This document shows positions 1,657-64,000 of a DNA stretch of 64,000 nt, one piece after another. Under the pieces are notes generated by a model that worked only from the letters and a program-made list of their open reading frames with translations, did no database searches and was not told the DNA's origin. The position numbers were made by a program, and so were the translations under genes. This stretch comes from Erodium maritimum. Taxonomy: Eukaryota > Streptophyta > Magnoliopsida > Geraniales > Geraniaceae. The first letter of the stretch is position 1, and each line of letters opens with the position of its first letter. Location: assembly GCA_963921825.1 (NCBI GenBank), contig OY997593.1, positions 68,432,039 to 68,496,038 of the forward strand. Direction: 5' to 3'.

Positions 1657-3280
1657 TTTTTTTGAGATAAATGATAATATTATAAATTGAAAAGCATTTT
1701 GGTGCCTGCGAAAGCAGGACTCACCATACATAATAACCAACCTATCAAAACATGAAAGACAAATGCAGAAAAGTAAATTTTGCTCTTAGGCATAATGGCG
1801 GTTGGGGGTGTGGGACTGCGGTAGCATCCTGGGATACCGATACAGTATACTCCAACCATAAGAAACTGATCGAGCAGATCAGAGGATAAATGTGCAGTGG
1901 TGGACCGATTACTCCCCCGGTATGTCAGCGTGCGTCGTCCTCCCTTGACTGATAATGGTAGGGCTCCTGAACGCGGGATTGCTGACTCCGAAGTGGTAGA
2001 GAAGTAACCCATCAACTGTTGGTGGTACCAATTCCACCTATACGCCAGGGAGAAGGTACAGTCGACCAAACCCTCCTTGGCCCCCTCAGTACTCATTCCT
2101 GGAGGCGAGGGTGCTTGAAGCCTCCGCCGCTGCAGATGACGCCCCATTCGACGCCGCTAATTATTCTTCCTCCGCAGGATCCTCCTCCCTCGCCACCCTC
2201 TTATTTCCAGAAAACGCGAGAATGCTGACCCCGAATTGGCAGAGGAGAAACTTGTCGGCTGTTGATGGAACCATTGCCACCTTACGTCCAGAGGGGCGGT
2301 GCTGCCGACCGACCCCCCTCTGGACCCCCTTGGACTCATTTCGTGAGGTGGGGGTGCTTGGTCCCCTCGCCGATGTGTGATTGGATCCGGCCCAGTATGG
2401 ACGACCGACATATTTCGGGACAATACCAGGAACAGACCCATGTACCAGACCCGATCCAAGCTCCAGATCCCGTCGGGTACCTACCATACCCGATCCAGGT
2501 TCTAGAACCCGACAGGTACCACCCTGATCCAGGTCGGTCTTGGGCTGGCCCATCACCCGGCCACGACCTACTCCTCCCGCGGCCCGCACCCACTCAGGCC
2601 CATCCCGACCTGTTCTTCTCGCACCCGCCAACAAGCCGCATCCTCAGCCCAGGCCTAGTGTCTGTGTCTCCTCCACTTCCGAAGCCCTAACCGACACGAC
2701 CTCCATGCCCGACCTCCTTGTCCAAGGCAACCGGTTCCGACTCCTCTTCCGGCTCTACCTCCACCGCGGCCCTTGCCGCCCGATGAAGTCCTTCCATGGG
2801 ATCAAGCCTCTGCAGCAGCTCCCGAGGAGATGAGGCTGACACCGACCTACCCCAAACAGTCCCCGCCGCCGCCTGCATCAACCTCCTAACCCTCGGTCGA
2901 GGGCATGTCGTCGGCATCCTCCTCACCCGTGCGTGATTCAGCCCTTGCGACCTTCTTCCACCAGTGATCCTACCACCCTGGTGTCCTTGCTCTGCAGCCC
3001 TGTTGGCCGAGAAAACTTGTTCCGGTCCTCCCTGCAACAACACACCACCCTTCACCAGTGATGACGAGTCAGGGGACCATGAACCGCCACAAGACAACAG
3101 TAGAGGCGACCCTGGACGAGACCCACTCACCGTCCTGGTTCCTTCTCCGTCGCTCGAGCTGTGGTCGCTGCCGGTGTTCGTCGAGTTTGAACGTGATGCC
3201 GTCCCCATAATCGCAAAGCCTGTCTTGGTTCCGAGAGAAAACCCTAAGAGAAAACGGCTGCGTAAAACAATATATTATTT
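1657..3280 (-). mobile_element. ORF1-only LINE-like element, copy A
   Basis: A minus-strand non-LTR insertion of about 1.6 kb. The TSD is TTTTTTTCCAATAT at 1643-1656 and again at 3281-3294, a 14-bp exact match. The poly(A) tail appears as poly-T at 1656-1663 next to the left TSD, which gives the orientation. The interior is GC-rich and no longer encodes an open protein. The 5' end, near 3240-3280, carries a CTTAGGGTTTTC block like the 5' leaders of related copies. It contains an internal tandem duplication (1976-2355) that recurs in copy B. Confidence 0.7.
1976..2355 (-). repeat. internal tandem duplication, about 243-bp period
   Basis: The block beginning GCTGAC near 1980 recurs near 2223 with the same order of landmarks: an AGAGAA/GAGGAGAA block, a GTTG(G/A)TGG(T/A)ACCA block, CCACCT(A/T)(T/C)CGCCA or its variant, CTCATT and a GGGTGCTTG(A/G) block. 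A third version lies inverted at about 8550-8710 in copy B, so the unit belongs to the element family and is not a local oddity. Confidence 0.6.
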
Positions 3281-3294
3281 TTTTTTTCCAATAT

Positions 3295-4097
3295 CAATAA
3301 ATACCGTATACTAAAAAAATTCAATTTAGACATGGATTATTTTGAATGAAACAAATGATCGATTTAACTTTGAATTTTTACTAATCTAATCTAAACATAA
3401 TTGTAATAGACTATTTTCGACCTGTAACTACTTTAAACTCAATATGATGCTAGAATCTTCGGATACTGACACAAAAGAAGTTCTTTTGTGTCAGTATATA
3501 CAAGAGACATATATACAATAGAGTAGAACTGTAGAAGTAGTAATTCAGTGCATTCCATACTCTCTTGATTTGATGATTATTTAATAAGTTTCTTTTTTGG
3601 ACCCTCTGCACCTTATTTATCAACCAAAGTTTTTTTTTCGATACATCAACTAGAGTTCCTATGTAGAAAAAGTCATAATATAATAAGAATTTGATTGGGA
3701 TAAATAGGGGAGTTTCATTTGCATCATCCATACGGGAGTTTCATTTGCATTAATCAAGTAGTTAAGTGCTTAAGCTTTTGGGGTTACAGAAATTAAGTGG
3801 CCTAATCAAGTAGAGCAAAAAAGATGATGTAAATATAAAGGGTAGTTTAAGTGATTATAGGGTTAAACATATAGATGTAGTTCAGTGCTTAAGCTTTTGG
3901 GGTTACAGAAATTATTTGGTGTTGTTATTAGTTTAATTTTAATAATTGGTGTACTGTTGGATGTATGTATTTATATATAAATATATTTGTGTTGCTTTGT
4001 GATTTGTTGTTATTAGTTTAATCTTAATAAGTTTGGAAGTGCTTAATCTCTTGGGATCACATAGTTTTAGTGAGTGAACTGATTTTTCTTGTTTAGG
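3295..4097 (+). other. 5' leader region of the hAT gene with repeats and an intron acceptor
   Basis: No coding region is seen. A 31-bp exact direct repeat lies at 3765-3795 and 3884-3914, and a weaker third match at about 4038-4060. A TTTTTCTTGTTTAG acceptor-like tract ends at 4096, one base before the transposase ATG. This suggests that a 5' non-coding exon is spliced to a second exon starting at the ATG. A 35-bp near-perfect palindrome sits at 3463-3497. No hAT-type 5' terminal repeat could be found. Confidence 0.4.
3463..3497. repeat. 35-bp palindrome
   Basis: Two 17-bp arms (3463-3479 and 3481-3497) are exact reverse complements around a single G. Part of the arm reads TGACACAAAAGAA. Confidence 0.9.
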
Positions 4098-6440
4098 ATG
4101 AACACATATTTTACACCGAAACCGAGATTTAAGGAGATAATTCCAACAAAAGAGACTCATGAACTTACAATTCCAAGTGAATGCTTCGATGAGGGGGAAT
4201 CTTTAGAGTCTGATCCCGCAAAAAGAATTGAAATTATGAAATATCACCCAAATGATCAAGATAAGATACGAAGAGCTTACCTTCTTAAAGGTCCATTTCA
4301 ACCCATTTCAACCAAGTATCCTATTACAGTTATTGCCGGAAGGAATCGCTCATTTCAAAAAAATTGGTTCGATGAATTTGATTGGCTTGAATATAGTATC
4401 GAAAAGGATGCTGCATTTTGTTTGCCTTGTTATTTGTTTTACAATGGTACTAGTGAAGCAACATTTGTGAAGACAGGTTTTAAAACTTGGCATCTGAAGC
4501 AAAAATTATTCAGACATATTGGTGAAATCCCCAATAGTCAGCACAAAAAGTGTGTAAAAAGTTGTGAAGATCTTTTGAAGAAAAATCAGAGTATTGAGTC
4601 TTCTTATTCAAAACATTCTGCCAAATCAGAAGAAGATTATCTTGTTCGTTTGAAAGCATCACTTGAAGCTATCAAGTATCCTCTTAGAGGTGGGTTGGCC
4701 TTTAGGACTCATGATGAAAGCGAAAATTCAGTTTATAAAGGCAATTTTCTCGAGCTTATAGAACTTTTGGAGAGAAATAGCGAAAGAATAGCTACTGCAA
4801 TAAAAAATGGTGGAGGAAATTGTAAGATGACTGCTCCTGGTATTCAAAAAGATCTTGTAAATGCATGTGTCGTTCACACTGTTAAGAAGATTGTTGAAGA
4901 AATTGGAGATGATATTTTTTGTGTACTTGTGGATGAATCAGGTGATTGTTCTGGTAAGGAACAAATGGCTGTTGTTGTGCGTTTTGTTGATGATAGAGGG
5001 TTTGTCGTAGAAAGATTTATCGGTATTGTTCATGTTAGAGATACAAGTGCAATAACACTTAAAGGATCTCTTGAAACATTGTTATCCGGATTTGGGTTGT
5101 GTATATCCAAAATTCGAGGTCAAGGGTATGATGGAGCAAGCAATATGCGAGGTCAATTTGGAGGTTTAAAAACTTTGATTCAAAAGGAAAATCCGCAAGC
5201 TTACTATGTGCACTGTTTTGCTCACCAACTTCAATTGGCCCTTGTTTCAATGGCGAGAAATCATGAAGATGTGGATTGGTTCTTTATTTTGGTATATCGT
5301 ATTGTCAATTTCTTACGATCATCTAACAAACGACAAGCTTTACTTCAACAGAAACAAGTTGCTCATTTTGCAAATCTAATTGAACAAGATTTGGTGGAAA
5401 CTGGTAAAGGGTTGAATCAAGAAATGACTATTGCTAGAGCGGGTGATACACGTTGGGGATCTCACTTTCGGACTATTTCTAGGCTAATTGATTTGTTCAC
5501 TCCTATTATTGAAATGCTCGAAGAGTTGAAACGTGATAGTCACTCAAAGGGAGAAATAAAAGGTTTGTTACTTGACATGCAAACTTTTGATTTTGTTTTT
5601 ATGTTGCATTTGATGGCTAAGGTTTTAGCGGTGACAAATGACTTATCTCAAGCATTACAAAAGGGCGATCAAGACATTGTTAATGCTATGAAGCTTGTCC
5701 AAATCAATAAGAAAAAGTTTCAAGAGATGGGGGATGGTGGATGGGAAGAATTTTACAATCAAGTTGTATCATCTTGTGGTAATCTTGAGATTGATGTGCC
5801 CGACATGGATGCAAGGTATGTGAAAGATAATAGGTCCAAACGTCTTGCTCCCTTTGTGACAAATTTTCATCATTTCAAAAATGATTGCTTCTTTGGTGTC
5901 ATTGATTTGGTGCTAAAAGAGTTGAATGATCGTTTTACCCCGGAAAATACTGAGTTGTTGCATTGTATTGCATCATTGAATCCTTCATCTTCATTTGAAG
6001 CATTTGACATGAACTTACTTGTAAGGTTAGCAAGATTGTATCCGGATGATTTTAAGGATGTATGTGATATGGAGTTATCTAATCAACTTCAGAATTATAT
6101 TGAGAGCGTCAGGATGGACACTAATTTTTCTAATTTGAAGGGGATCTCCGATCTTTCTAAGACTCTTGTCCGGACAAAGAAGCACAAGACCTTTGGATGG
6201 GTGTACAAGCTTGCCAAGCTAGCTTTGTCATTACCAGTGGCTACCGCAAGTGTTGAGCGAGTGTTCTCCGGTATGAATTTTGTGAAGAATGAGTTGAGAA
6301 ACAAAATTTCTAATGCATGGCTTAATGATTGTTTAGTGACTTATGTAGAGAAAGAAGTGTTTAGTACAATCGATGATCTAGATATCATTAAGTACTTTCA
6401 ATGTATGAATAGGAGGAGAATGCAATTACCTAAATGCTAG
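4098..6440 (+). CDS. hAT transposase, TTF-type zinc finger / ZMYM1-like
   Basis: A single uninterrupted frame of 780 codons starts at ATG 4098; the upstream in-frame TTG at 4089 is not a credible start. The N-terminal third (about residues 70-150) has the TTF-type zinc-finger pattern with FCLPCYLF followed by a distal H and C. The middle is a DUF4371/RNase H-like hAT catalytic core with acidic residues in LVDESGD (D279) and GYDGAS (D345), then the CFAH and DTRWGSH motifs. The C-terminus carries the hAT dimerisation block (LPVATASVERVFS). Its role is cut-and-paste transposition in the nucleus. It looks open over its full length with no stop. The 3' terminal repeat is present at 6572, but no 5' one is recognisable, so it may be an immobilised or domesticating copy. 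The frame is AT-rich, unlike the GC-rich retroelement ORFs beside it. Confidence 0.88.
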   Translation: MNTYFTPKPRFKEIIPTKETHELTIPSECFDEGESLESDPAKRIEIMKYHPNDQDKIRRAYLLKGPFQPISTKYPITVIAGRNRSFQKNWFDEFDWLEYSIEKDAAFCLPCYLFYNGTSEATFVKTGFKTWHLKQKLFRHIGEIPNSQHKKCVKSCEDLLKKNQSIESSYSKHSAKSEEDYLVRLKASLEAIKYPLRGGLAFRTHDESENSVYKGNFLELIELLERNSERIATAIKNGGGNCKMTAPGIQKDLVNACVVHTVKKIVEEIGDDIFCVLVDESGDCSGKEQMAVVVRFVDDRGFVVERFIGIVHVRDTSAITLKGSLETLLSGFGLCISKIRGQGYDGASNMRGQFGGLKTLIQKENPQAYYVHCFAHQLQLALVSMARNHEDVDWFFILVYRIVNFLRSSNKRQALLQQKQVAHFANLIEQDLVETGKGLNQEMTIARAGDTRWGSHFRTISRLIDLFTPIIEMLEELKRDSHSKGEIKGLLLDMQTFDFVFMLHLMAKVLAVTNDLSQALQKGDQDIVNAMKLVQINKKKFQEMGDGGWEEFYNQVVSSCGNLEIDVPDMDARYVKDNRSKRLAPFVTNFHHFKNDCFFGVIDLVLKELNDRFTPENTELLHCIASLNPSSSFEAFDMNLLVRLARLYPDDFKDVCDMELSNQLQNYIESVRMDTNFSNLKGISDLSKTLVRTKKHKTFGWVYKLAKLALSLPVATASVERVFSGMNFVKNELRNKISNAWLNDCLVTYVEKEVFSTIDDLDIIKYFQCMNRRRMQLPKC

Positions 6441-11169: not shown

Positions 11170-11625
11170 TATTTATAAGATCAAATCTTTTTTTTTCTCT
11201 CTCTCTCAACTTTTGAGATCCCCTCCTAGCCCTAGCTGCGCGACAGCTATGGTGCTCTCCTCCACCCCCACCGTCGACATGCTCTCTTACGTGGCTCCGC
11301 CTGTGGTTGGCGCTACTGCTCATGTTGGTGATGCTCCCCTTGCGTTACCTTGCCCTCTGCAACCCGCTCCCGGTGTTGGAGACAAGAGCCAACGTCGGCG
11401 AAAGCTCAAACCGCTCCTACCTCCCTCTTCATCTCTGCCCGTGCTGCCGTCGCTATCTCTCCCTCCTCTAGGAGCGATCTCAGATAGGGTCTCCTTCTCA
11501 TTAGGATCAACCTCTCCGGATCCGATCGCAAAACCGAGATGAGGGAGACCTTCACGTCACCCCTTGGTGGCTTCTTCTCCACGAAACAGCCTCCTCGCTC
11601 TCCCCCTCTGAACCCTAGTTCTCTG

Positions 11626-11694
11626 CCCCCCACCCCCCCCCCCCCCCCCCCCACCCCCCCCCCCCCCCCCCCCCCCCACCCCCCCCCACCCCCC
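11626..11694 (+). repeat. poly-C tract
   Basis: About 69 bases of nearly pure C, broken only by a few single A residues. Its length in the assembly may be unreliable, and it breaks the reading frame between the ORF1 leader and the DUF4283 domain. Confidence 0.9.
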
Positions 11695-11885
11695 AATAGC
11701 CATGACCTCGCTCTGGCTCCTCCTTCACACCCTCTCTAGGGTTCCTTCCCCCTCACAAAATTAGCTTGGTTTCCCCTACTAAAGATACATGGGCTAAGGT
11801 AGTGACTACTTCCATTGGTGCCTCGGGCTCTAACCCTAGTATGGTACTACCGCTACAACGAGACCTAGCGAAGGGGTAGGCACCC

Positions 11886-12860
11886 ATGGAAGGGCTTTTT
11901 AGGACGACAATGATGGCTTTGGAGTTAGGGCATTGCCTTCCCGATCAGGCCAGGATCCCGATCATCCCGACGTGTTTCACTACTCCCGAAGGGATGATGA
12001 GAGACCGATCGAGGCATTTGGATACGTTGGAATTTGCTTCGGACGACTTGGTCTCGGATCTTCAAGCATCCCTAGCGGATCTTCATGACGGGTTATCATC
12101 ATGCTCTTTGGAAGATGACGAAGTGGTGGTTCCGTCCTCTCGGGCGACATCGACGGCCATTGCCTGCCAGCAATGGGGGATGTTGGGGAGGTTGTGGTCC
12201 CCAAAGACTCCCCGCAAGGAGACACTCCTACGTATCATTACCAACGCGTGGGGGAAGACTGTTGAGGGTCTCGTGGTCAAAGACCTAGGGCCGGGGCTGT
12301 TTGGATTCTACTTGCGGTCCCCTGAGGCTCGGTCGTGGGTCCGAGGCAACGAGCCTTGGTGCTTTGATGGACGGGCCCTGTTGTTAGGTGAATTGGATCC
12401 ATGTGCTCGGGAGATGTCAATTCTCGGTCGAGTGCAATTGTGGGAACATGCAAGGGGTCTACCGCCCCTGGTACGGACGCGGGAAATGAGTACTTCCATC
12501 GGGGACACGCTGAGAGTGTGTGTGGATGTCCCATGTGACCAGTGGGGCATGTGTTGGGGCGGCACTGTCAAAGTCCGGTTCTGGTACCTCCTTGAGAGGT
12601 CACTGCGTAGGGGACTGGTCCTTCGGTTTAAGGAGTTCCCTGAGCCGATCCATGTGGAACTCACCTGCTCAAAGCTTCCGAGCTTCTGCTACAGTTGTGG
12701 CCGGCTCGGCCATGTCTTGAAGGAATTTAAGTGGGCGGTCAAAGGATCCCCGAGGTTTGACTCCTCCTTGCTAGAATATCAGAGGGAAAAGCAGGTCAAA
12801 GCCTATGCAAGGGATTGGGGGAGGGTGACCGTTCGTCTGCTCCACCTGGCTTCGTCCTGA
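11886..12860 (+). CDS. DUF4283 / zinc-knuckle ORF1 protein of a LINE-like element
   Basis: A 324-codon open frame. Residues about 110-245 form the DUF4283 core: LLRIITNAWGK, then a GPGLFGFYL strand, then EPWCFDGRALLL, then PLVRTREMSTSIGDTLRV. This is followed by the LRRGLVLRF block and a zinc knuckle, CYSCGRLGHVLKEF, in which the final Cys of C-X2-C-X4-H-X4-C is Phe. In plant L1 elements this protein is the RNA-binding ORF1p. It lacks the usual N-terminal leader, which seems to lie in another frame upstream (11213-11542) across the poly-C tract. There is no ORF2 downstream, only 3' UTR and poly(A). Probably non-functional because of the altered knuckle. Confidence 0.6.
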   Translation: MEGLFRTTMMALELGHCLPDQARIPIIPTCFTTPEGMMRDRSRHLDTLEFASDDLVSDLQASLADLHDGLSSCSLEDDEVVVPSSRATSTAIACQQWGMLGRLWSPKTPRKETLLRIITNAWGKTVEGLVVKDLGPGLFGFYLRSPEARSWVRGNEPWCFDGRALLLGELDPCAREMSILGRVQLWEHARGLPPLVRTREMSTSIGDTLRVCVDVPCDQWGMCWGGTVKVRFWYLLERSLRRGLVLRFKEFPEPIHVELTCSKLPSFCYSCGRLGHVLKEFKWAVKGSPRFDSSLLEYQREKQVKAYARDWGRVTVRLLHLASS

Positions 12861-13689
12861 AAGGCCCCCTGGCTCTGAATAAGGCCCCTCGGACCTCCAT
12901 GCCTTCTGGTCTGGGGCCTCAGGATCTTACCAGAGTTTCCCCTGCTCAGTCCCCGGTTATCTCAGCACTGGTGGCCCCTCCACCATCCTCTAGTCAGATG
13001 AGTGGGGGAGCTTGTGAGGGCTCGGGGGAAAAGGCTGTCGGGCTTCCTGTTCCTGCTGGAGTTGGAAAGAGTATTGGAGCGCTCTAGAGATCAGCAGCTG
13101 GAGCTCCTCGGGAGGATCAAGTCAGGGCGGGAAAGCAGCCCCACCAGGAGGAATGAGAGGCCAGATGAGTATCGGGGACTGGCCCAGGGAGGGGTCCCAA
13201 GACGATGCTTTGCCTCCCATCATCACCATTACTGTTGAGGTCCCTCGGGATCCCAGTACCCCTTCCCCCTCTTTGTATTCTGTCTTTTTCCATGCAACAT
13301 CAAAATACCGCTTGTGATGGTTATGGTACTACAAGGATCAGAGAACCATTATACATCCAATCTGTCTTTTTCATCGTGGTTGGGGAGTTCTATTCCTCGA
13401 CACACGGTAATGTAATTGTATTTTTATTAATAATATTGCAACTTTTGCTAAAAAAATATATTTAAGACTTGTCAGATATAATTTAGAAAACTTATTAAAG
13501 TTTCATTGATAATTTTTTGTATAAATTAAATTTTAAAATTATAAAAACAGTCTAAAATCTAATTAGAAATTTACCACATTTTTTTTACAAAATAAATATA
13601 GACACAAACTTTAGTAAAATAATGCGGCCTTCCCAAATTCAGTGGCCTTAGACGATTGCCTTTCTTGCCAAGTGAAAAGGCTGGATCTG

Positions 13690-13817: not shown

Positions 13818-14637
13818 TTCTCTTAAATAACTTTTTTTTGAACGAAAGGTGCAATATTATAACTTGTTAAAAACGATTACATCGAAGCGCCTCGAGGAAC
13901 ATGCTCCTCGACCACGAAATGTCATTATGAATGAACAATGGTTCACTGAACCTTTTAGTACCAGAACCGTCGCAGACGGTATTTTGACGCCCCATGGGCA
14001 AAGGAAGAAGATGGGGAGGGGGGACGGGGTACCGAAGATCCCGAGGGACCTCAATAGTAATGATTATGGTGGGAGGCAAAGCATCGTCTAGGGACCCCTC
14101 CCAGGGCCAGTCCCTAGAGCACTGGATTCTTGTCGTCATTGACCTTGCAAAGATGAAGTCAGAAAAAATAGCAACGAACCACTCGATTAGCCATATCCAT
14201 AATCGAAAGAGGGGTCGAGGAAGGAGCAGTGGTGGAGGCCAGGGAGGAGGCGGTTTCATGGACGACGGTGACGCCTTGAGAGGCGGCAGAGGCCAGGGAG
14301 AAGGATGCGCTAGTGGCTTCAGCGGGGACGGGGGCTGATCGGGAGAGATAACCCGATACATCGGAGGCCCTGGTGAAAGCGCAACCCTAGGCAACGCGCC
14401 ACCTGAAATAGGAACCAGAGCAAGGTCGTGGTAATCCCGCGTACACGGTGACCTAGGGTTCGGAGGGAGAGGGACATGGCCGTTGCTTGGGGTGGAAGTA
14501 ACCCAGGGCCAAGAACGCCATGGTGGCGGAGAGGAGAGACCGAACCTACGTCGGGAGAGGTGGAGGCAACACCAGGGTAAGATGCGGCGAGAAATGACTG
14601 AAATCCTAGGTTTTTTTTTTGAGGGAAGTATAATTCA

Positions 14638-17600
14638 TTACTCGGAATCAATAACCAGGAGCCCCGGGATGGGGTTTGGCAATTGATTCAAATTCAGTAC
14701 AAGATGAACCCAAGTATAAGCATTATGAGCCAACTCATGTGCCACTCTATTGGTTACTCTACGAACATGGTTAACTCTCACCCCTGGTAATTGACTTAAA
14801 ATAGCCTTACAATCATCAATAATCCCCCCAACGGAGATAGCAGGCGCGCTGGATTATTGATGGCAAGAACTACTCCAAGACAGTCAGTCTCGATTGATCC
14901 TGCTAACCATTCACTGCTTCTCAACCACACCAGTGCTTCCTTGACTGCTAGAGCCTCCAAAATCTCTGGGTTAGACAAATGTGGAAAAATAAAACATCTA
15001 ATTCCCACCACTGTACCTTGGTTGTCCCTACAAATGAATCCGCCTGCTCCTCCATGTCCTGCCACCACTGCACCGTCCAAGTTCACCTTAATGGAGCCCT
15101 CGACTGGTTTGCCCCATTTGTCAGGACCAACCGGTCGAGGGACTCCAGGGAGGTGTTGATGAGACTGAGCTGCTTTCCACTCCGACTCCAGCTTCACTGC
15201 TGCCCTGAAAATAGCCTCGGCCGGAGTGGCCTTGTCATTCCAAACACGGTTCTTCTGGGCTTTCCACAGCTCCCAACAGACAACCCCGAGTAGCTCCGCC
15301 TCCTCACGAGAGCATGTCTCCCAATTGTGGGTCAACCACCCACGAATCGAATCGATCTGGCGTAAAGAAACACTCGGAACCCTACTCCACACATCAACAA
15401 CAACTGAACAGGATAGCAAAACATGGGAATCAGTCTCTTCTTCTCCACAAACCCCACAAAGTCCTGAGACATCCACCCTCCTGGTTCTAAGACAAGCCCC
15501 AGTGGGGAGTATCCCAGAAGCTCCCCTCCATAACATGTGAACGACCTTTGGGGGAACCCGTAGAGACCACAACTTCTTCCAAAACTCATCCCTGCTATTC
15601 GGGCCCCACCTTCCTGCAACTGCCTGAATCTCCCTGTAAACCAATTTCACAGAATAAATACCATCACAAGTACCTTTCCAGAACCAAGTATCAGTGTCCC
15701 GCCCCGAATTGAGGGGGACCTTAAGTACCCGCCTCAGCATCTCTCTCGGAGAGTACCCGCTGGATAAACTCCACATTCCACTCCCTTCTGCCTGGCCAAA
15801 ACAGTCTGCTAACCGTCCAAAACTCCATTGGGGCGTCCACATCCACCAAGTAACCGGACGCCGACTCAGCCCAAGGAGCTCCGGTGAGGAAAGTCTGATC
15901 TCCCGACCCGATACTTCTGCGGACACCTCTTCTAACCACATCCTGGGCGGCCATAATGCTATTCCAGATGGGGCTCGAATTTGGTTTCCTCAGAGCGTGT
16001 ATAAAATCTGTCATGGGATAATATTTCGCCTTCAAAACTCTACTGACAAGGCTCTCCGGATTCGACATCAACCTCCAACCTTGCTTACCTAGCAGCGCAA
16101 GATTAAAATCATGCAGATGTTTAAAACTCAAACCACCCTGCAGTTTATGATCACATAATGCACCCCACCTACGCCACTTAATGCCCGAACCTGTCTTGGT
16201 GTTATGAGACCACCAAAACCTGTTCATAATTACCTCAATCTCTCGAATCAATGAAACAGGTAATAGGTGAACACTCATTGAGTACATAGGGAGGGCTTGT
16301 ATAACAGATTTTAACAAAACTTCCTTACCAGCCTTGCTTAGTAAAAGTTCGTCCCAGCTTGTCAATCTGCGGGAAATACGATCTTTGATGTACCTGAACG
16401 CCTTATATCTGCTTCTCCCTATCACTGCCGGGAGTCCCAAGTACGACCCCACATCCACAACCTGCGACATTCCCAAAATACCTTCCACCCCTTCTTTTCT
16501 AGCCGGTAATGTATTAGGACTAAAAGATATCGACGACTTTTGGGCGTTGATTTGTTGCCCCGAAGCCCTCTCATACCGTACCAACACTTCCCTCCAGGCC
16601 TCCGCTTCCTCCTCATTCTCCTTTCCGAAGAAAAAGCTATCGTCTGCAAAAAAACAAGTGAGTAATAGGGGGAGCATCCCTTACTACTCTAGTACCAGTA
16701 ATCAACCCCCGTTGTTCATAAATTGTAATTAAACGGGAAATTCCTTCTGCACAAACGATAAACAAGTATGGGGATAGAGGATCACCCTGTCTGATTCCCC
16801 GTCCCGGCCTAATGGGTCCCAACCTTCTCCCTTCTGTGGAAATCCATAACTGGGGAGACCGAACACAGGACATGATCAATCCCACCCACTTGGCAGAAAA
16901 ACCCATACGGTTTAACACCCTTTCCAAGTAACCCCAGTCCACCCGGTCATAAGCTTTCCTCATATCAACTTTCATAGCCATCTGTCCAGCCTGACCCTGT
17001 CTCTTATTCCTCTGATAATGTAGTACCTCTCCTGAAATGATGATGTTATCGGTGATCAGTCGACCTTTCAGGAAGGCACTCTGAGAGTCCGAGATAGAGA
17101 CCTGTAAGATACCTGTCATTCTGTTCACAATAACCTTGGATATTATTTTGTAAACCACATTACACAACGCTATTGGACGAAATTAAGCCATAGTCGCAGG
17201 TCGTATAACTTTTGGAATTAAAACCAAATTAGTTCCGTTTAAAACAGAGGGAACAGAACCTGATTCAAAAGCCTGCTGCACCACCCGGAGTAAGTGGGGA
17301 TGAAGTACTGACCAATATCTCTGGAAAAAACCCGGGTTGAAACCGTCAGGCCCCGGGGCTTTTAGGGGCATCATACTAAACATAGCTGTCCTCACTTCCA
17401 TCAGAGTAACCGGCCGAAGTAGGTCCTCATTATGGACGTCTGTAACCGTCTGAGGTACCAGTTGACTCACATCATCTTCAACTTCAGACTCCTGCAGGAA
17501 TAAACCCTCAAAATACTGAATCATAACCTCCTCCAGGCCCTTCCCCCACTCCCTCTGAATACCACTGTCATCTGTCAACTTCACAATCCGGTTTCTTCTT

Positions 17601-18691
17601 CTGCGCGCAGAACACTTTGCTTGGAAGTACCTAGTGTTCCTGTCTCCCGAATTGTGCCAGTGTTGTTTGGCCCGTTGCTTCCACCTATCATCTCTCTGGG
17701 CCAAAAGAAGTGTCAACTGACCCCTGAGGTAATGAACTCTGTCACCACTAACTTGATCCCATCTCCCCTTTAGTCTATTCATTTCCTCCTGGCAATCCCG
17801 AATACGTTTGTTCAGTGTATCAGGATTGGCATTCGCCCACTTACTGAGCTCCCCCGCCGTGTATTTCAGTCTGTCATGAATACCCAAATCATTCTCCTCC
17901 TCCCAAACACGTCTGATCACCTGCTCACATTCGGGTTCTCTTGTCCAACCCTCTTCAAACCTGAAACAGCGGGATCTCCAACCTATTTCCTCCTTCTTCC
18001 CAATTACCCAGATAGGGGTGTGGTCAGATGTTGACAGACCCCCATTGAGTAATAAGGTGTCCGGGTATAACTCATCCCAGCGCCTATTGGATGTAGCACG
18101 ATCCAACTGTGTTTCCACCCTCTCTGGGCTGTTCCTTCCCCTCTCCCAGGTGTACCGGTACCCTGTTATGGGGATATCACGCAGACCACTATCCATCAGA
18201 GCTTGACCAAAACCAACCTGCAACTGTCTTGGGTACAAATTTCTTCCTCTCGTATCTGCATCAGAAAGGGTATTGTTAAAATCACCAAGAACAACCCACG
18301 GAAGATCCTCCTGTTCACTTAGTCTGCGTAACAAATCCCATGTCTCCTTCCTCTTGTCTCTTCTCGGTTTCCCATACAAACCAGTCACCCGAACCTGCAC
18401 ACCTTCATCATTAACTGTAAGGAGATCAATATGTGACTTTGAGAAAGTTCTCAGCATACCGTCCTCCCTATTTGCCCAAAACATGGCAATACCACCTCCT
18501 CCATTTCTGCTATTCACTGCAAAAGATCCACCCATACCCATCATCCTGCTCATATGATCAATCAATGCTTTCTGACACTTAGTTTCAGATAGAAAGACGA
18601 TCTCGGGTCGCTTTCGAGCTACAAGCTCGACAAGGAACTGTTGCGCCCAGGGGTTCCCAAGCCCCCGGCAGTTCCAAGCAAGCAGCCTCAT
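14638..18691 (-). pseudogene. LINE ORF2: endonuclease - reverse transcriptase - RNase H (broken)
   Basis: Begins at ATG 18691. Residues 1-230 are an APE-type endonuclease (LAWNCRGLG, SETKC, GDFNNTL, STSDHTP). Reverse transcriptase follows (PGPDGFNPGFFQ, NMTGIL-type RT blocks, RIRQGDPLSPYLF, a FADD catalytic motif), then a zf-RVT-like CGVC...H...C segment and a plant-L1 RNase H domain (VNLDGAV, ICRDNQG, EALAVKEAL, ETDC). It is interrupted by an in-frame TAA at 17183-17185, an extra T in a T7 run just before FADD (about 16650), a lost GA in a GA repeat (about 15750) and a shift near 14840. The likely original stop is at 14638-14640. The RNase H domain agrees with the archaeal-type RNase H known in many plant L1s. 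Confidence 0.88.
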
Positions 18692-21705: not shown

Positions 21706-21758
21706 ATTAGGGTTCTTGGGGTTTGTTGTTGTGTTGTGTTTTGTTTTGGTTGCATGGG

Positions 21759-25110: not shown

Positions 25111-25128
25111 AACTTAGACATTCTATTT

Positions 25129-45461: not shown

Positions 45462-45658
45462 TTTTGCAAAAATAGATAGTAGGGGTAAAACCAAGAACTA
45501 ACTATCGTCGAGTTTTACCGCTCAAGAACTTGTTGCTGACTTATTAGTTGATCAGATCAGTACCCTTGACTTATGGTAATTCCACAAACATTTTCCCTTA
45601 GATTTGACATAAAACGTTAGGAAAAACTCCAAAAAGTAACAAGTCTACAGTTAGTTTT
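45462..45658. repeat. left arm of a second inverted-repeat element
   Basis: Matches about 47965-48170 in reverse over about 190 bp (ACTTATTAGTTGATC; CAGTACCCTTG; AAAACGTTAG; AACTAACTATC blocks), about 80% identical. The arms enclose the gypsy fragment. Outer TSDs were not resolved. Confidence 0.7.
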
Positions 45659-48865: not shown

Positions 48866-48868
48866 TAA

Positions 48869-50823: not shown

Positions 50824-52200
50824 ATGATTCATTTGGTAATTGCGGTCGTCGTCATCAAGCCTACTATCGCATTGCAGGGGGGGAGCCCCGTCCCTGTCAC
50901 CCCCACCTTCCGTCTGTCATCCTCGAGCGTCTCCCCCTCCGTCCTCACGGGTGCTGAGCCAGTTTCCCCCAACATCGGCATCTCCTTGTTCTCACCATCT
51001 CCGTTCATATCCAGAGTCACCCTTCTCTCTCCATGCAAGAGCAAGCCTCTCCTCGGGGCCTCTTTTCCCGTTCTGACTGGGCACCTCTTTGGGACACCTT
51101 ACTGTAGCGGAAAGGACCACTACAATCGAGGGCCCCCGCTAGACCGAAGCTTCTGTTGCCGTACCTCAAGATATAGTCGGATGCTCTGGATATCCACGGT
51201 CATTTCGACTCGTTTGCTTTGGAGGATGAGAAGGAGAAAACCATAGTGGCAGTTCCGGTTTGGGCTGTCTCGACAACGACTAACAACCGATACCTACATG
51301 CATTGACGAAGAGGATATTGTTGGATGTCTCTTGAAATCCTCGGACCCTTTGAGGGAAATGGCGACAAGGTGGAAGGTCCGTGGCTTGGAGATCAAGTGC
51401 CTCTTTAAGGACACGGTGACCTTCTATTTCCTGTGCAAAGCAGTAATGAAGAACATTCGTCATTGTAGACCATGGGACTTCAGTGGCTATCCACTGTTAT
51501 TGGTGCCTCTCTAACGGTGCATACAACCTAGTTCCATCAGATTACGGTTTATGGAGATTGCGTTTAGGACCTTCAACATACCAGGGGATGCACAGACGGA
51601 CCCCATCCGATCCTTGTTGGACAATACACTTGGTACGGAGGTGGTCACGACCTCGTGACCAAGTCACTAGCGTTGGGACGTCTTTTTGTGGTTCTGGGTC
51701 AGTCTGGACGTGGATAGGCCACTCCATCACAAAATTCACCTCATTTTCCTGGGCCATCTAGAGTCTATGCGAATCGGGCTTCAGACTCGCCTCCCGGGAG
51801 TGGGAGGGGAGGAGTTTCGTTTTTACAACTCCCTCAAGGACTTGATGAGGATGGACCGGATCATTTTCTCCGAACGAATTGGGAAGCACCTCGGGAGTAG
51901 ATGTTGGAGGTGCAGGGTGAGATCAAAACTTTCAGACTCATCAAGGGAGCCCAATGTTTCAAGGGGAGGGTATTCCCGTGGCACCCGAGGGCCCCCACCG
52001 GGGGTTCAGGAACTCCTTTTACCTAGGGTTTGGATTTCAGCACTAGAGATTTGTAACTTTGTTAGGGAGCACCCTAAGAGGGTGTCTCCAGGTTTGCAAT
52101 GGGCGCATCCTAGACTAGATGTCGGGACACTGCGGATCAAAAAAATATGTGATCTGGTTAACGAGGCCCGAGAGGACTAGGCGTCGAAGGAGGGTGGATA
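50824..52200 (+). pseudogene. relic of a DUF4283 ORF1 (copy G)
   Basis: Plus-strand pieces in changing frames follow DUF4283 order: EMATRWKVRGLEIK, then YFLCKAVMKNI, then RPWDFSGYPLLL (51340-51510), then VWVSLDVDRPLHHKIHL-like sequence (about 51690-51740). An extra KRVSPGLQWAHPRLDVG tail runs to 52180. No ends or TSD were identified, and it is strongly decayed. Confidence 0.5.
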
Positions 52201-54000: not shown

Positions 54001-54017
54001 AAAGAACTACAAAAGCT

Positions 54018-56349
54018 ATAAAAAAAACGCTCTGCTACCTCTCAACTGAGGTCTCTCTCTACCCTAACTAGGGTTCTTCTGCCGCCGTCCAACCCACGCT
54101 GCCGTCGTCGCCTGAGCTCCGGCTTCACTGTCACACATCGACGCCCTCTTCCCTCCACGATTTCGCTGTTTCCTGTCACCTCCTCTCCGTCGAACTCGTT
54201 CATTTCCGAGTTTCTACGTCCGCCCGAGCGCCGCCGGCTCCACAGAGAGCCCGTTCACGCCCTTGTCCGTGCTTCTTCATATCTGTCGCCCTCCAGCCTC
54301 GCTTGCCCGGAAATGGATGGTGAAGACCAGATCCGGCCCACTGAGGTTCGGCCACAGTCCCAGCCCCCGGCAGCGATGAGCTTCCTGCCTGAGGTAACTT
54401 TCCCGGCGTCTTCACCTATTATTTCTCGTCGCCCACCGGAACAGGGTCGGCCCACCGACAACCTGTCCTCTCTGAAGGACAAACCAGGCGGAGATCCGAC
54501 CGGGATCATTGCCTACTCGGGTCGCAGACGCCGCCGCGCCCTCGAGGAGGTCTTCCGGAGTAGGCAACGGTCCATACAGATCAGACGCTTGTCTCTCGAC
54601 CTCAGTCGACGGTGGCGGGGTCCTGGCACCGTCCTCTGGTAAGCCAGACAACGGGGTCGTCCAACCGATTGGCAAGTAGGATCGGCTCTCCTGCGTGTCA
54701 GGGGGGAGAGAGCTCCGTCTTCCTCCGGTCCCGGACTGGGAGGATGAAGATGATGAAGTGGTGGTCCCGGTGGAGGCGGTCCCGGCGACCAAAAAGGGGA
54801 CTTCCCAGTTCTCGCTGGCGGCCCGGGTTGCAGGAAATCAGAATCATAACCAAAATGCGGTCTGTGCAATGATGTTGCAGAAATGGAAAGTAGACGGCAT
54901 TCAGGTTGAGTTCATGTCCCCGGAGGTCACGGGTTATCATTTCCCATCTGTTGCAACATGGAGAATATCTGGCATCGGGGCACCTGTATTTTCAAGGGAT
55001 ACCCAGTGCTTCTGGAACCTCTCCAACCGTATGCTCAAGCATACGAGATTGAGTTTAACCACATTGAGATGGGGGTCCGAGCCATGAACGTCCCGTCAGG
55101 GTCCAAAACCCCGGAGATCCGGAGTCTTATTGTTGCTACCATTGGGGTCCAGGTGGTGTCGGCTCCAATACCGTTTGTCCGCCGGGAGGATATGTTCCTA
55201 TGGCTGCGGGTACGGATGGAGTTGAATCAACCTCTTCGGCGACGTCTCCGCCTTCGGTTCCCAGACACTGTTACCTCCTCACATCTTTGTCGCAGGTGTA
55301 GGAGGATGACACACCGGATTACGGGGTGTACAGCTCACTTACCGAGAATAGGTCGGGAGGAGGGCCGTTATGACACTACGATTCTGGTACCAAGGCATCT
55401 GGATGTGGATAGGCCGCTGAAAACAGTATGGCATGCATCCCCTTCCCGGGAACCGGTGGCTGTTGACGATCTCCTGACTGGGCTTTCCTTGAACCCTATG
55501 GTCCGTTCTAGGGAGATCCTTATGGGGGATGGTTTTTCGGCTGCAGACGTTCCGTCGAAGTCTGATGATTTGGCTAAGACTACCTCAGGAGGGGTGGTCA
55601 TTTGTTTGCAGGATTGAGTGGGCCGGGATTGTGGAGGGCCATCGGGGTTTACAAAGCCTGACAATCTGGCTAACATCCACCCTGCTCGAAACCCCCTGCC
55701 TCTGATGAACCCACAAACACCTCAGGGATCCGGGTAGGGAAGGAGAAAGACCCCAAGGAAGTTTTGGGGAAAGATGGCCCTATTCGGGGGAAGGCCAAGA
55801 AATCTTCACTGCAGACAAGGAGCGGGTCGCTGTATGCTCATCCGCCGGGGTCAAAGAAATCGCTGGATCATCCGGCCCCTCCTCCAGAATTCACCCAGCC
55901 GGTCAACGCTGCAGGGGACCAAGAGAAGCAGGCGGAGGCAGGACAACCTCCAATGCAGGAATGACCCGACCCGGTAGAGGTGGGTGGAGCCGATGAAGGA
56001 CTATACCTACAGACCCGGGACAACCAGTGCTGAGCGGTCCCGGGCAGCCTGCACCAACAACTCATCTATTTTATCTACTTTATGATTATCTGCTTTATTT
56101 CTGGAACAATTTATCGTTTATTTTGATTAGGTGCTTTTATTTTATGTCTCAATGTTTTGAGACGATGGTAAGGAGTTGTCTTGAGTGTTTGCCAACGATT
56201 AAAAGTAGGCTATTATTATGGGTTCATGAGCGCTGGACTTGCTACGGTCGGTCATGACATATATCTGGAACCCTAGGCGTTTACGCCCTTCCTTGTTTGA
56301 TTACCTTTGGGTATTAATACTATTCTCCGGTTACCCTTTTCAAAAAAAA
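54018..56349 (+). mobile_element. ORF1-only LINE-like element, copy H, full length
   Basis: The exact 17-bp TSD AAAGAACTACAAAAGCT lies at 54001-54017 and 56350-56366, with a poly(A) run before the right copy. The plus-strand element of 2.33 kb has a leader with CTAGGGTTC (54068-54076), a DUF4283/knuckle coding region in two or three frames (about 54313-55617), a GC-rich tail and an AT-rich 3' UTR. No endonuclease or reverse transcriptase sequence is present, although both ends are intact. Confidence 0.85.
54313..55617 (+). pseudogene. DUF4283 ORF1 of copy H (broken)
   Basis: The first frame (54313-54642) encodes a Pro/Arg-rich N-terminus. The second (54695-55087) starts with acidic WEDEDDEVVVPVEA and enters DUF4283 (VCAMMLQKWKVDGIQVEFM). 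The third (54958-55617) continues DUF4283 (IWHRGTCIFKGYPVLLEPL) through PLRRRLRLRF to a complete zinc knuckle CRRCRRMTHRITGC (C-X2-C-X4-H-X4-C). At least two frameshifts separate the parts. The layout equals the ORF1 of the full LINE. Confidence 0.7.
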
Positions 56350-56366
56350 AAAGAACTACAAAAGCT

Positions 56367-58820: not shown

Positions 58821-59504
58821 ACGGGGCAGTTGGATGGATTACTTCGTGAGAGATGGTTACTGTGGTTTCACCCAAGTGTATGCATCCTATGGGAGCACTA
58901 CCTTGGTTCCCTAGGGAACAAGATATGTCACGCCCCGATTTCAGCGAACCGAACTCGGGACGCGAACTTTTAAAAACATGAACACTTGAAACCTGTTTTC
59001 AATAAAAGCTTTGACATTTCCATTTACTTCTCAAAATAATAGCATTTACAATACAAAAACGTCCCAACAAGTGGACAAGGTACAACATCCGTCACTAGAC
59101 TCAACAAAAGTAAAGACCAGACTCCGCTCCAAGCTCCATGAACTTCAAGAGCTAACCTAGTCCGTCCGGTGATCGGTACCTGTAGGAAAAGCAGCTAGGG
59201 GTGAGCGTTCGCTCACCTCCACGGATAACAGACTGACTATGGCATAATTAGCAGAAAAAGCCAGTAACACTAAAACCAAACCCAACACCGGGACTACAGT
59301 CCCCAACTCAAGTACTCAACTGACCCACAACCCGTCACCTTCCTCAACAGACTCGACACTCGATAAAAACAGTGTAGACCCGACACAACTATCGACGACC
59401 TCCTCAAGGACTCGAACGAAACGACACAACACCAAACAAGATCACAAAGGATCGCACACCAGCTGCTCAGTAACCAATCTCAATCAGGTCAGGGTTCGAC
59501 CTAT

Positions 59505-59696
59505 CGCAATTCCTCGACACGAAGTCGGATCAGGCTGTCGACCTTTCAAACTCGCAATTCCTCGACACTAAGTCGGATCAGGCTGTCGACCTTTAAAACT
59601 CGCAATTCATCGACACTAAGTCGGATCAGGCTGTCGACCTTTAGAACTCGCAATTCATCGACACTAAGTCGGATCAGGCTGTCGACCTTTAAAACT
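59505..59696. repeat. 48-bp minisatellite, four units (copy 1)
   Basis: Units begin CGCAATTC(C/A)TCGACAC and end CTGTCGACCTTT. There are four units here against six in the second half at 60463-60750. Confidence 0.95.
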
Positions 59697-60462
59697 CACC
59701 ACCCCAGGTAACCACAATCACAATCACAGGCAAGTTCAATCACACAGGCACTCAAGGCCACTCAAGACACCTCAACAGTCAAGACTCGGGTTCAACAACC
59801 CCACGGGCACTCGCTGCCACTCAAGACACCAAATTAAATACACGGCTCTCATGGCCACCCCGACTCAACAATTAAATACGGGCTGTCACGCCCCGATTTC
59901 AGCGAACCGAACTCGGGACGCGAACTTTTAAAAACATGAACACTTGAAACCTGTTTTCAATAAAAGCTTTGACATTTCCATTTACTTCTCAAAATAATAG
60001 CATTTACAATACAAAAACGTCCCAACAAGTGGACAAGGTACAACATCCGTCACTAGACTCAACAAAAGTAAAGACCAGACTCCGCTCCAAGCTCCATGAA
60101 CTTCAAGAGCTAACCTAGTCCGTCCGGTGATCGGTACCTGTAGGAAAAGCAGCTAGGGGTGAGCGTTCGCTCACCTCCACGGATAACAGACTGACTATGG
60201 CATAATTAGCAGAAAAAGCCAGTAACACTAAAACCAAACCCAACACCGGGACTACAGTCCCCAACTCAAGTACTCAACTGACCCACAACCCGTCACCTTC
60301 CTCAACAGACTCGACACTCGATAAAAACAGTGTAGACCCAATACAACTATCGACGACCTCCTCAAGGACTCGAACGAAACGACACAACACCAAACAAGAT
60401 CACAAAGGATCGCACACCAGCTGCTCAGTAACCAATCTCAATCAGGTCAGGGTTCGACCTAT

Positions 60463-60750
60463 CGCAATTCCTCGACACGAAGTCGGATCAGGCTGTCGAC
60501 CTTTCAAACTCGCAATTCCTCGACACTAAGTCGGATCAGGCTGTCGACCTTTAAAACTCGCAATTCCTCGACACTAAGTCGGATCAGGCTGTCGACCTTT
60601 AAAACTCGCAATTCATCGACACTAAGTCGGATCAGGCTGTCGACCTTTAGAACTCGCAATTCATCGACACTAAGTCGGATCAGGCTGTCGACCTTTAGAA
60701 CTCGCAATTCATCGACACTAAGTCGGATCAGGCTGTCGACCTTTAGAACT
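60463..60750. repeat. 48-bp minisatellite, six units (copy 2)
   Basis: The same 48-bp unit as at 59505, six copies. The 48-bp length keeps a frame open on the minus strand (a 16-residue repeat), which explains the apparent 103-codon frame there. Confidence 0.95.
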
Positions 60751-63506
60751 CGCCACCCCAGGTAACCACAATCACAATCACAGGCAAGTTCAATCACACA
60801 GGCACTCAAGGCCACTCAAGACACCTCAACAGTCAAGACTCGGGTTCAACAACCCCACGGGCACTCGCTGCCACTCAAGACACCAAATTAAATACACGGC
60901 TCTCATGGCCACCCCGACTCAACAATTAAATACGGGCTCTCAAGGTCACCCAAACTCAACAATTAAATACGGGCTCTCAAGGCCACCCAAACTCAACAAT
61001 TAAATAAAGCGCACGACAACCTCCGGCATACTCGATGCCTCCAACAGTCCTAAAATCGCTAGTTTCACAAACAACCTCCGGGCATGGTCATATGCCTCCA
61101 GTAATTCAATTATCGCTAAGTTCTCTGTTCCTACGACACTACTAAATGTCACATGCCTTTCTCTTAAACGCTACAATCCCGTATCATGCTTTTCTAATAA
61201 TTAAATAAATCTACTCAACCCACGACACCCCGGTGTCACATGCAATTCTACCATTAACTTTCCCTACTCAGGGCCGAGATCCGGCTACTTTTCCCTACCT
61301 CGTATACAATCCCAAAAGCGCTCCAACAACACCCGAAGCACACTCAGTCACTCGCCGAGCTTCCCCTTGCTTCGGTCCGTAGCACGATCTAACAGAACAC
61401 AAATTTAAAGTACTTTTAAACTAGTACGAGTAAACCGAAAATTAATAAACTTAACGCCCAAACGTAACCCCGACAATGCCGATCACTCCCAAACTTCCCA
61501 ATTACTCGATATTGCCGATAAAGGACCCGTAAGTGCCAGATTCGCCCGTCATGGCGAATCTGCCCGGTTTTGGTTAATTGCCTTCCGGGGCTCCAAAAGT
61601 CCCCGTTTTCGTTTCTACGGTCTTAGAATATTTCAAGGAACCCAACGCACTTGACGGAATTGAATTCCGACTTCTAAGTCAATTAATTAACGTTTAAATT
61701 TTCCTGTTTTTCGCAGGTTTGACTGACGTTGACCAGAAGTGGTTATTACAAGATATGGTCCTTTGGAGGCATTTCCGATGATAAGCGCCCATTTGGGATT
61801 GTTTCTGGTGCCCCGACGCATGTGCCTCCTCTGGACCGAGGGAAAATCTGATATGATATGGGTACTCTGGTGGATCGGAATTATGGGAACCGAGGTGATC
61901 CCAGAATCTATCCATGGATCGGAGGCTTGAGAAAGCAAGTGGTTGGCGTGATATCAATTACTCCCTTTTTAATCGTTATGATACGTTATAATATTCCTAT
62001 GGAACCTTTCAAGTTACTGTTATCTTTAAGAGTACGATGCTTATCTTATTCTATCCTGTTTATTTACTATTTCATTGTTAATCGTATTATATCGTTATTT
62101 GAGTTATCTGTTTAAGCAGTTTATTTTGACCTAAGGGTTGAGTTGTTAAGATTTTTCCTACTGAGCGTAAGCTCACCCCCTTTGGTTTCTTACTGTTTTA
62201 CAGGCGTACCTGATGTCTAGTGAGTTCGAGGCTCGGGATCTTTTGGACGTCTTGGGGTTTATTTTAGAGTTATGTTGGTCGTGTGTACTAAACATCATTT
62301 ATCTTACTCTTTATGTTGAGTTGTGACTCATTGGAGATTTTTGAACTTTTACTGAGGTTGATTTGAGAAAGTTTATCTTGTTATTTTAAACGTTTATGTC
62401 AATTGTTTATCGCTTTTCTATTCTTAACACCGGTCACGTCTCGAGTCCGGTCAAAACCGAATTTGGGGCGTGACAAGTAATCCGGTGCAATCGGTTTTAG
62501 AAGTGCCATAAAGACGTACTGGAAATAAAATTAAATTATGACGAAACCAATGGTTGCTGCTCAAGGTGTAGTCTTCATGATCTATTCGCTGTATTAAATC
62601 GAACCTACGATCATTGGTTTCAAGGGGTGGCAGAGCTCTAATCAGGGACCCTCCCAAGGCCAATCTTTGGAGCATTGAATCCCTTTCATTCCTCCATGCG
62701 GGTCAGCATGCCCGCCCTGTCCTGATCGTCTCAGGGATCCCCAGTGGATCCCCTATTTACTCCTCCAGCTCCTGCTCCAACACCAGAATCAGTTCTGGCT
62801 CCAAGTCTAGGTCCATCTTTGTGTTCAAGTAGGGACGGGGTATCGGCTTTCCCACCATCCGAGGGTCAGACGATTACCAAGTTTGTCCAACCTGGATCGG
62901 CCAAGCGGCTCGCTCCATTAGGTGTCTTAGCCGAGATACTATCGGTCCCCTGCCTCGAGACAAGGGGGCCTTAGGTGTAGTAGTCGATGCTATCAGTTTA
63001 CAAGTCGGCTGATCATCCCAATCTGTGGCATATACCCTGGACCGATATCTTTGATCACCAACTCCTCTGCTGATTTACCCCATGCCTTGGTGATGATCCG
63101 GAGTAAGATTTCTTTTTAGGGCGGCTTGGACGATCACCGCTTGCCTATCATGAAAAATTGTTGTCTAGCCAATATGGATGGGATCACCGGGGTGTATGGT
63201 ACCATCACCTCAATGTCCTCCTCCTCCTCCTCCAAAGAACAAGCCGAGAGGCCATCCTAAAGTTTGAGCAGTTGGGAGTCCAGGCATGTCGGAGAGGGAG
63301 GTGCCACAAGTTGAGCCGACTTTCTTGGGTCTGAAAGATCGACTAAGGTGGGTCATCCCCAGAGGTGGTGTGAGGAGCGCTGGGTCATGGGGACACGGGC
63401 TGCATTGGGAAACCGACCCACTCACAAAGAGCAGCCACGTCCGCCCTCCCTGGCTCTGGCCTCCCCTGTTCAGGCTTGTGGACTTTCTCTTTAAAAGGGT
63501 CGCGGA

Positions 63507-63995
63507 TCAGAGGGGCAGTAGGATGGTGGCAGGTCCTGTCACGGGCGGCGCTGTGATGGTGAGAGGCGAGGCGTTGGTGACCGGAGCAGGTGGCGTGATG
63601 AGGGGAGTTGGTTCCACTGGTGGTCGGAGAGCAGGGACCGTCACCTGAGGCAGCAGAGGCTGCACATCGTCGTGAGCTGGGATCGGAACTTTCAACTCGA
63701 CCGTAGGGGGCGGCGGAGTGGAATTCTCCAAAATCCTAGTGTTGCTTGCAGAAGAAGTTAGGGTTTGGGTCTTCAAATATCGACCACGCCGGGCTTTACC
63801 CAGCGGTTCAGATGTACTTGGAGAGAAATCCATGGTTGTTAAAGTCGGGGGAAGAAGGAGAGGCGGCGCGGAGGAGAGGAAGAGAGAAACCGGGGCGGTA
63901 GAAGAAGGCTTAGGGTTTCTTCTACGCCTTAGTTTATTAATTGGCTTCACAGTCGACGAGGGACGAGGCGGAGGCGCGCGTGGGAGGGACTGCAC
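63507..63995 (-). pseudogene. N-terminal part of a LINE-type ORF1 (copy I)
   Basis: A 162-codon frame rich in Pro, Thr and Ser with a basic NKLRRRRNPKP start; the internal Met in TTMDFSPSTSEPLGKARRGR is a likelier start. It matches the style of N-terminal regions preceding DUF4283 in this family. DUF4283 itself follows in another frame near 63100. It is cut by the window edge on its 5' side. Confidence 0.4.
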
Positions 63996-64000
63996 CAGGC

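Follow-up and report, generated by a model that had tools for sequence, protein, structure and literature searches.

Mammalian HAL1 elements are non-autonomous L1 derivatives of several origins that encode ORF1p only (PMC5753468), and their mobilisation by L1 is thought likely (PMC4161310). In plants, Celine of poplar and other long interspersed nuclear elements (LINEs) of the L1 clade carry a first open reading frame (ORF1) with a DUF4283 domain (PMC11288735). The Sadhu retroposons of Arabidopsis are about 900 bp long, end in poly(A), have target-site duplications (TSDs) of 7-16 bp that tend to start with A, and are thought to be mobilised by LINEs; they are described as non-coding, with an unclear source of enzymes (PMC2848041). 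R2 SIDEs of Drosophila are short, internally deleted non-long-terminal-repeat elements that keep both ends and move in trans (PMC3414825), and grass pairs of LINEs and short interspersed nuclear elements (SINEs) of the monocot 1a L1 lineage have a common 3' hairpin, from which comes the tail-sharing logic for trans mobilisation (PMC3747384). The literature searched (titles and the starts of abstracts, with most subscription journals and Repbase outside its coverage) contained no plant ORF1-only LINE, which is no proof of novelty. Here we analyse element H, a retroposon with ORF1 but without the endonuclease and reverse transcriptase (RT) of ORF2 (a half-LINE), in a 64-kb stretch of Erodium maritimum DNA (assembly GCA_963921825.1, contig OY997593.1, positions 68,432,039-68,496,038 of the forward strand; hereafter the window), and its relatives in the 763-Mb host genome, which contains the window.

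As a first-pass annotation of the window had claimed, H is complete at both ends and lies within an exact target-site duplication. It is built as follows.

54001-54017, plus strand: 5' copy of the H target-site duplication, an exact 17-bp repeat, AAAGAACTACAAAAGCT
54019-56342, plus strand: element H, an ORF1-only half-LINE of 2324 bp followed by poly(A) (40 scored relatives with common ends and no ORF2 inside)
54313-55964, plus strand: ORF1 region of H from start codon to stop, about 550 codons, disrupted here (tblastn with the ORF1 of relatives; Pfam on the relative L006; stop read)
55965-56342, plus strand: 3' untranslated region (UTR) of H, followed by poly(A); it is highly conserved and contains TTTGATTACCTTTGGGTATTAATAC close to its end (46-copy alignment; genome-wide motif matches)
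56350-56366, plus strand: 3' copy of the target-site duplication, exact 17-bp repeat AAAGAACTACAAAAGCT

The scanned frames of H gave only a weak DUF4283 match, in agreement with the earlier claim that neither endonuclease nor RT is encoded inside it. A genome search with H provided 40 scored places, the top of 2829 first-look candidates. The 3' end is constant among them, since 39 of the 40 reach query position 2348-2350 and the other one 2311. When the relatives were re-aligned, 17 began at H 1-13, 15 joined H at 169-199, one began at 367, and seven were shorter. All 15 joining copies have a second 5' region that matches L014 upstream of the joining point, 11 of them to within a few bases of the L014 start. 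One of the two 5' regions is thus present in 32 of the 40 places, and both types begin near ACGCTCTG or GCGTTCTG wherever the start is plain. Searches of these loci by tblastn with four ORF2 pieces of the full LINE in the window (LINE W, described below) detected ORF2 within none of the 40 copies. H therefore belongs to a real ORF1-only family: many genomic copies have the same 5' and 3' ends and no ORF2 between them, as the first-pass annotation had anticipated. That the copies are decayed, 5'-truncated LINE pieces brought together by chance and sharing no structure is a reading that suits other copies of the window, namely element E with its 3' half, the fragment at 51359-51850 without clear ends and the nested insertion at 13818-20441. 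It is already refuted for H by its recurring ends, and the 5' and 3' boundaries of H (and, by position, those of a second element, B) recur at many separate places, so that for the set as a whole we regard it as scarcely credible.

One of the relatives (L041) carries at 420-1896 a single-copy insert of 1477 bases inside the H sequence, with GTAGT on both flanks; no credible ORF2 match was found in this insert.

Concerning the marks of insertion, the best direct repeat between the 5' side and the 3' flank was scored in 46 copies, the 40 above and six obtained by tail search, with 138 wrong pairings as control. A score of at least 12 was reached by 17 of the 46 copies and by none of the control pairings, and a score of at least 11 by 20 copies and three control pairings; the remaining copies showed no repeat above control. 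Of the 24 TSDs chosen, 22 open with A, A is the second base of 23, and a T stands directly before 18 of them. This start bias gives modest support for an L1-type nick, because the poly(A) absorbs leading As and thereby disfavours an A at position -1 in any case. The family thus has the hallmarks of LINE-mobilised retroposons, with poly(A), TSDs of roughly 7-20 bp and a T|AA site, the TSD not being present in every copy.

ORF1 is broken in H itself, where the longest frames have 235 and 206 amino acids and the Pfam score for DUF4283 is 20.2 bits, under the cut-off of 27.2, but related copies retain long open ORF1 frames. In the relative L006 both DUF4283 and zf-CCHC_4 exceed their Pfam cut-offs, in the plant L1-clade order of DUF4283 followed by a CCHC zinc knuckle, and no other domain was found in its ORF1 at E <= 0.01. 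DUF4283 is also above the cut-off in B and in LINE W. Selection was assessed from parsimony changes on a tree of the 33 copies of at least 2.1 kb, after dropping seven shorter ones of the 40 (median pairwise distance 0.15, range 0.065-0.245; median terminal branch 0.050). Over codons 1-519, changes at positions 1, 2 and 3 numbered 204/150/293 on internal branches and 708/625/757 on terminal branches (p = 6.5e-5; p = 0.002 without CpG columns), a third-position excess of 1.66 and 1.14, respectively. The signal was located in amino acids 200-519, which comprise most of DUF4283 and the zinc knuckle (85/58/155 internal against 390/334/410 terminal, p = 2.2e-6). The four ligand residues of the knuckle are kept in 32, 33, 32 and 30 of the 33 copies. 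Since the excess on internal branches is far weaker on terminal ones, ORF1 was kept while the sources lived and decayed almost freely after insertion; the substitution pattern shows past purifying selection on ORF1 during the life of the source elements.

Stops shared among copies were considered as a sign that broken ORF1s had been propagated, and this was rejected: the codon that is a stop in 8 of the 33 copies has three different stop codons and marks no single clade. This is codon 385, where TGG has been turned into one or another of the three stops, and it is likely a mutation hot spot.

No PDB chain matched the L006 ORF1 by sequence. A predicted model of its core, of low confidence (mean predicted local distance difference test score 61.6), has the order strand-helix-strand-strand-helix-strand. 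The five PDB matches that Foldseek returned at E <= 0.001 comprise three chains of RRM pairs, one spliceosome chain and nucleolin; normalised by query length, their TM-scores are all 0.24-0.26. An RRM-like fold is thus weakly predicted for the DUF4283 domain, at most a hint that the domain may bind RNA.

A protein search with the L006 ORF1 gave 84 matches, of which 79 places were compared after dropping two rows for the window copy and three secondary pieces. Identity to L006 ranged from 100% to 51%, and 58 of the 79 places were outside the list obtained with H. In two of these 58 the tail motif lies 394 and 437 bases behind ORF1. Two further stop-free ORF1s, 57% and 55% identical to L006, carry an H-type tail (79% and 81% identical) at the position where the endonuclease of a LINE would be expected; they are two of four further stop-free rows, picked before their downstream sequence was known. 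A second complete ORF1-only element stands by chance beside an H-type copy at locus L042, at about 3145-809 on the minus strand; it is 68% identical over H 700-2324, its 5' end resembles that of H, and it is flanked by a TSD of 13-15 bp. The H family is probably, then, a long-lived plant lineage of half-LINEs.

The H tail motif has 310 matches in the genome with up to three mismatches, against none for the reversed control, and a 284-bp tail query gave 40 scored places at 91-100% identity. Six tail places outside the H list were fetched. Five of them, including the 5'-truncated L078, carry H-type or related 5' sequence joined to the last 30 or so codons of ORF1 and the 3' UTR; the sequence of the sixth, L077, ends at the tail. 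These derivatives of about 1 kb show at least three different junctions. Two of them (L074 and L079) have open micro-frames of 101 and 103 amino acids that start and end like ORF1, and no such frame was present in L075 and L076. The TSD score of L076 is 12, above every control, while those of L079 (10) and L074 (7) are within the control range. Classified by position searches, the 40 best tails comprise 14 of H type (some truncated) and 18 short ones, and the 60 exact motif places 18 of H type and 12 short ones; 40 listed places with one mismatch in the motif stand outside this classification. ORF2 was seen in none of the 32 classified tails among the 40 best. Another locus, L082, suggests a mini form of about 0.3 kb. 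L080 and L081, which lie upstream of tail-motif variants ending ACAATT, are alike, and the stretch obtained for them does not match H; they are possibly another short retroposon family. A fold near the H 3' end was computed on 45 of the 46 copies, with a pair variation too small to prove structure.

Internally deleted derivatives of about 1 kb with the same ends as the H family have thus spread. Full-length relatives of L074 occur at 94, 87, 83 and 78% identity, forming subfamilies of their own, and therefore copies beget copies. This bears on the proposal that the family consists of retropseudogenes of one or more host genes domesticated from a LINE ORF1. Such an origin likewise predicts selection on the source and copies with poly(A), TSDs and constant ends, but retropseudogenes, being dead, are not normally copied again, and neither the two 5' regions of the H family nor a tail conserved beside ORF1s of only 55-57% identity would be expected from it. 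We consider it very improbable.

The same pattern may be repeated in a second candidate family, represented in the window by element B.

11201-13457, plus strand: element B, second ORF1-only candidate family, 2.26 kb (shared boundaries in genome match rows)
11880-12860, plus strand: ORF1 open frame of B, 326 amino acids, with DUF4283 above and zf-CCHC_4 below the Pfam cut-off

No clear TSD was found for B in the window. A genome search by positions only scored 40 places of 7534 candidates and gave 52 match rows, of which 19 start at query 190-202 and 27 end at 2453-2470, one of the latter being the split short element of the window described below. Eight single rows span both boundaries in 2.2-2.3 kb, a distance that leaves no room for ORF2. 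B is thus a candidate for the ORF1-only pattern of H, as judged by position. Its last 286 bp or so are shared with the split short element at 76% identity. Inside B there is also a C-rich tract of 69 bases (11626-11694).

Our explanation of these observations, which we think likely, is that the plant half-LINEs are analogous to HAL1, with another type of ORF1, and were moved in trans by an L1-clade LINE. In an H-type element, a 5' UTR would be followed by a single ORF1 for DUF4283 and the CCHC zinc knuckle, and this by a conserved 3' UTR ending in poly(A), with neither endonuclease nor RT encoded. Its RNA would be transcribed from its own 5' UTR and coated by its own ORF1 protein, which would account for selection on ORF1. 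An L1-clade LINE would supply the ORF2 protein in trans, and target-primed reverse transcription would copy the RNA where a T/AA site is nicked. The derivatives of about 1 kb would use both the ORF1 protein of the half-LINE and the ORF2 protein of the LINE. A broader proposal is tentative and may well claim too much: an old semi-autonomous lineage, with its own selected ORF1 down to about 55% identity and a borrowed RT, parasitised by elements of about 1 kb and perhaps of about 0.3 kb, would make a three-tier hierarchy of LINE, half-LINE and mini-element in at least two families.

Movement in trans has to be weighed against the possibility that H-type copies are recurrent by-products, internally deleted or spliced, of a full LINE that shares their ends, in which case the selection on ORF1 would be that of the LINE. 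Spliced L1 copies offer a parallel, purifying selection on ORF1 is expected of a LINE, internal deletions clearly occur in the H family, and many tails and ORF1 places are unread. Yet a LINE source should have left ORF2-bearing copies, or 5'-truncated ORF2 copies, with the H tail. No ORF2 appeared in the 40 scored relatives, the 32 classified tails or five further ORF1 elements, in spite of ORF1 divergence to 55%. The first-pass annotation had named relatives with the same ends that regularly carry ORF2 as the finding that would overturn its half-LINE reading, and none turned up in the scored places, the classified tails or the four further ORF1 places checked. A low-copy full LINE as the source would have to be missing from every classified copy. 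We therefore judge the by-product origin unlikely.

Several observations weigh against the half-LINE explanation. The ORF2 check covers four of the 58 further ORF1 places, the other 54 being unread, and 8 of the 40 best tails (L077 among these) and 30 of the 60 exact motif places are unclassified. Scoring was confined to the best of 2829 and 12754 first-look candidates. The sole match of the ORF2 pieces to H-family loci is an RT-like stretch in L041 (2715-3116; 135 amino acids at 27%), about 70 bases past the 3' end and outside the element. Amino acids 1-200 of ORF1 taken alone gave no significant contrast (p = 0.33), and the 3' UTR, used as a periodicity control, was uneven too (p = 0.025) in the opposite direction, a sign of noise. 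Two B rows begin at the 5' boundary and stop at query 2006 and 1555, so that a B relative bearing ORF2 may exist. Many tails being unread, the places examined contained no autonomous LINE that ends in the H tail, and the partner L1 with a matching 3' end suggested by the first-pass annotation was accordingly not recovered there. A comparison of 150 zf-RVT places with 100 tail places yielded no pair, the 150 being drawn from 12902 candidates and too thin a sample to count. LINE W was rejected as the partner, as the H 3' end found no match in it. An H-like tail beside the LINE copy L048 was also set aside; it is on the strand opposite to the L048 ORF2 and was taken as a separate insertion.

The remaining retroposon copies and related fragments of the window are these.

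13834-14610, minus strand: 3' part of a short retroposon (about 0.87 kb; TSD 13818-13832 / 20441-20455) whose 3' end is of the B type
14611-20333, minus strand: full LINE W (ORF1, endonuclease, zf-RVT, RNase H-like) inside the short retroposon, with a 3' end unlike that of H
20334-20440, minus strand: remaining 5' portion of that short retroposon, with one copy of the target site duplicated by LINE W (sequence comparison)
22098-22212, minus strand: fragment matching part of the H 3' UTR at 72% identity (sequence comparison)
25129-26184, plus strand: element E, about 1.05 kb, no Pfam domain in the tested frame, 3' end common to many genomic copies
1657-3280, minus strand: element A, about 1.6 kb, with a T-rich TSD of 14 bp; two frames tested, neither with a Pfam domain
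51359-51850, plus strand: decayed ORF1-like fragment, 32% identical to the H-family ORF1 (tblastn with that ORF1), no clear element ends

The first-pass annotation had placed eight or more such copies in one family encoding at most DUF4283 and a zinc knuckle. Pairwise comparison ruled out a single family, as H, B, A, E and the split element differ from one another, and several copies have no recognisable ORF1; none of the frames tested from A, E and the split element gave a Pfam DUF4283 match. The half-LINE reading thus stood for H, and by positions for B, but not for the window copies taken together. All four of the duplications it listed exist. Besides that of H, there are 18 bp with one mismatch at 25111/26191 (E) and 14 bp at 1643/3281 (A), where a T run makes up half of the length; the 15-bp repeat at 13818/20441 belongs to the short element split by the full LINE and not to an ORF1-only copy. 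The exact pair of 3' blocks GGACTGGCC and GGAGGGGTCCC, reported in three copies, was confirmed in B and the split element, and near 62.7 kb only a degraded version exists. A and E are other retroposons, distinct from H; the genomic relatives of E mostly match its 3' half only. No defined element was found around 51 kb. LINE W has its own duplication, CCTAGGATTTCAGT, at 14597-14610 and 20334-20347, and near-identical copies elsewhere in the genome. Most of its scored relatives have ORF1 and endonuclease side by side, a weak control since the W query contained ORF2.

Apart from retroposons, the window contains on the plus strand a 785-amino-acid open frame for a hAT-type transposase with DUF4371 and the hAT dimerisation domain (4083-6440) and a 437-amino-acid frame of the plant acyltransferase family (43340-44653; Transferase, PF02458), and on the minus strand a 212-amino-acid frame with a CAP (PR-1-like) domain (21178-21816). 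An inverted repeat pair of 1.6 kb, 87.7% identical, lies at 37960-39539 and 45658-47241, and a tandem duplication of about 1 kb with arrays of a 48-bp unit at 58926-60942.

If it is true that ORF1 alone stays selected in an element that borrows its enzymes, it follows that in plant L1-type elements ORF1 must work in cis, on the RNA that encodes it, an action otherwise hard to test. Mammals and plants would also have arrived separately at the half-LINE design with different types of ORF1, and the small derivatives would be a model for the parentage of orphan plant retroposons of about 1 kb, of the Sadhu kind. Annotators should also be aware that a DUF4283 frame in a plant genome may represent a half-LINE copy.

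Compared with HAL1, the H family is likewise an L1-type retroposon with ORF1 and without ORF2, but its host is a plant and its ORF1 consists of DUF4283 and zf-CCHC_4. The mammalian L1 ORF1 is of another type than the DUF4283 ORF1. Judged from the Pfam listing, without direct comparison, the H-family ORF1 is not homologous to mammalian L1 ORF1p, and a co-resident autonomous L1 with a common 3' part was not found among the places examined, many tails being unread. The plant L1-clade LINEs, Celine and LINE W among them, resemble H in the DUF4283 ORF1, the poly(A) and the TSD; the ORF1s of the H family and LINE W are 28% identical over 188 amino acids. Those LINEs, however, carry ORF2 with endonuclease and RT, which the H family lacks. 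The H derivatives of about 1 kb are similar to Sadhu in size, poly(A) and TSD, but they are internal deletions of identified ORF1-bearing elements. Judged by eye, element starts in the H family lie near ACGCTCTG rather than at CAATCGTTSC, the 5' motif of Sadhu, and the 2.3-kb form has coding capacity. R2 SIDEs differ from the H derivatives in being site-specific in ribosomal RNA genes and in having a 5' ribozyme. The tail-sharing logic of the grass LINE/SINE pairs is the one applied here to H, for which the places examined yielded no partner LINE.

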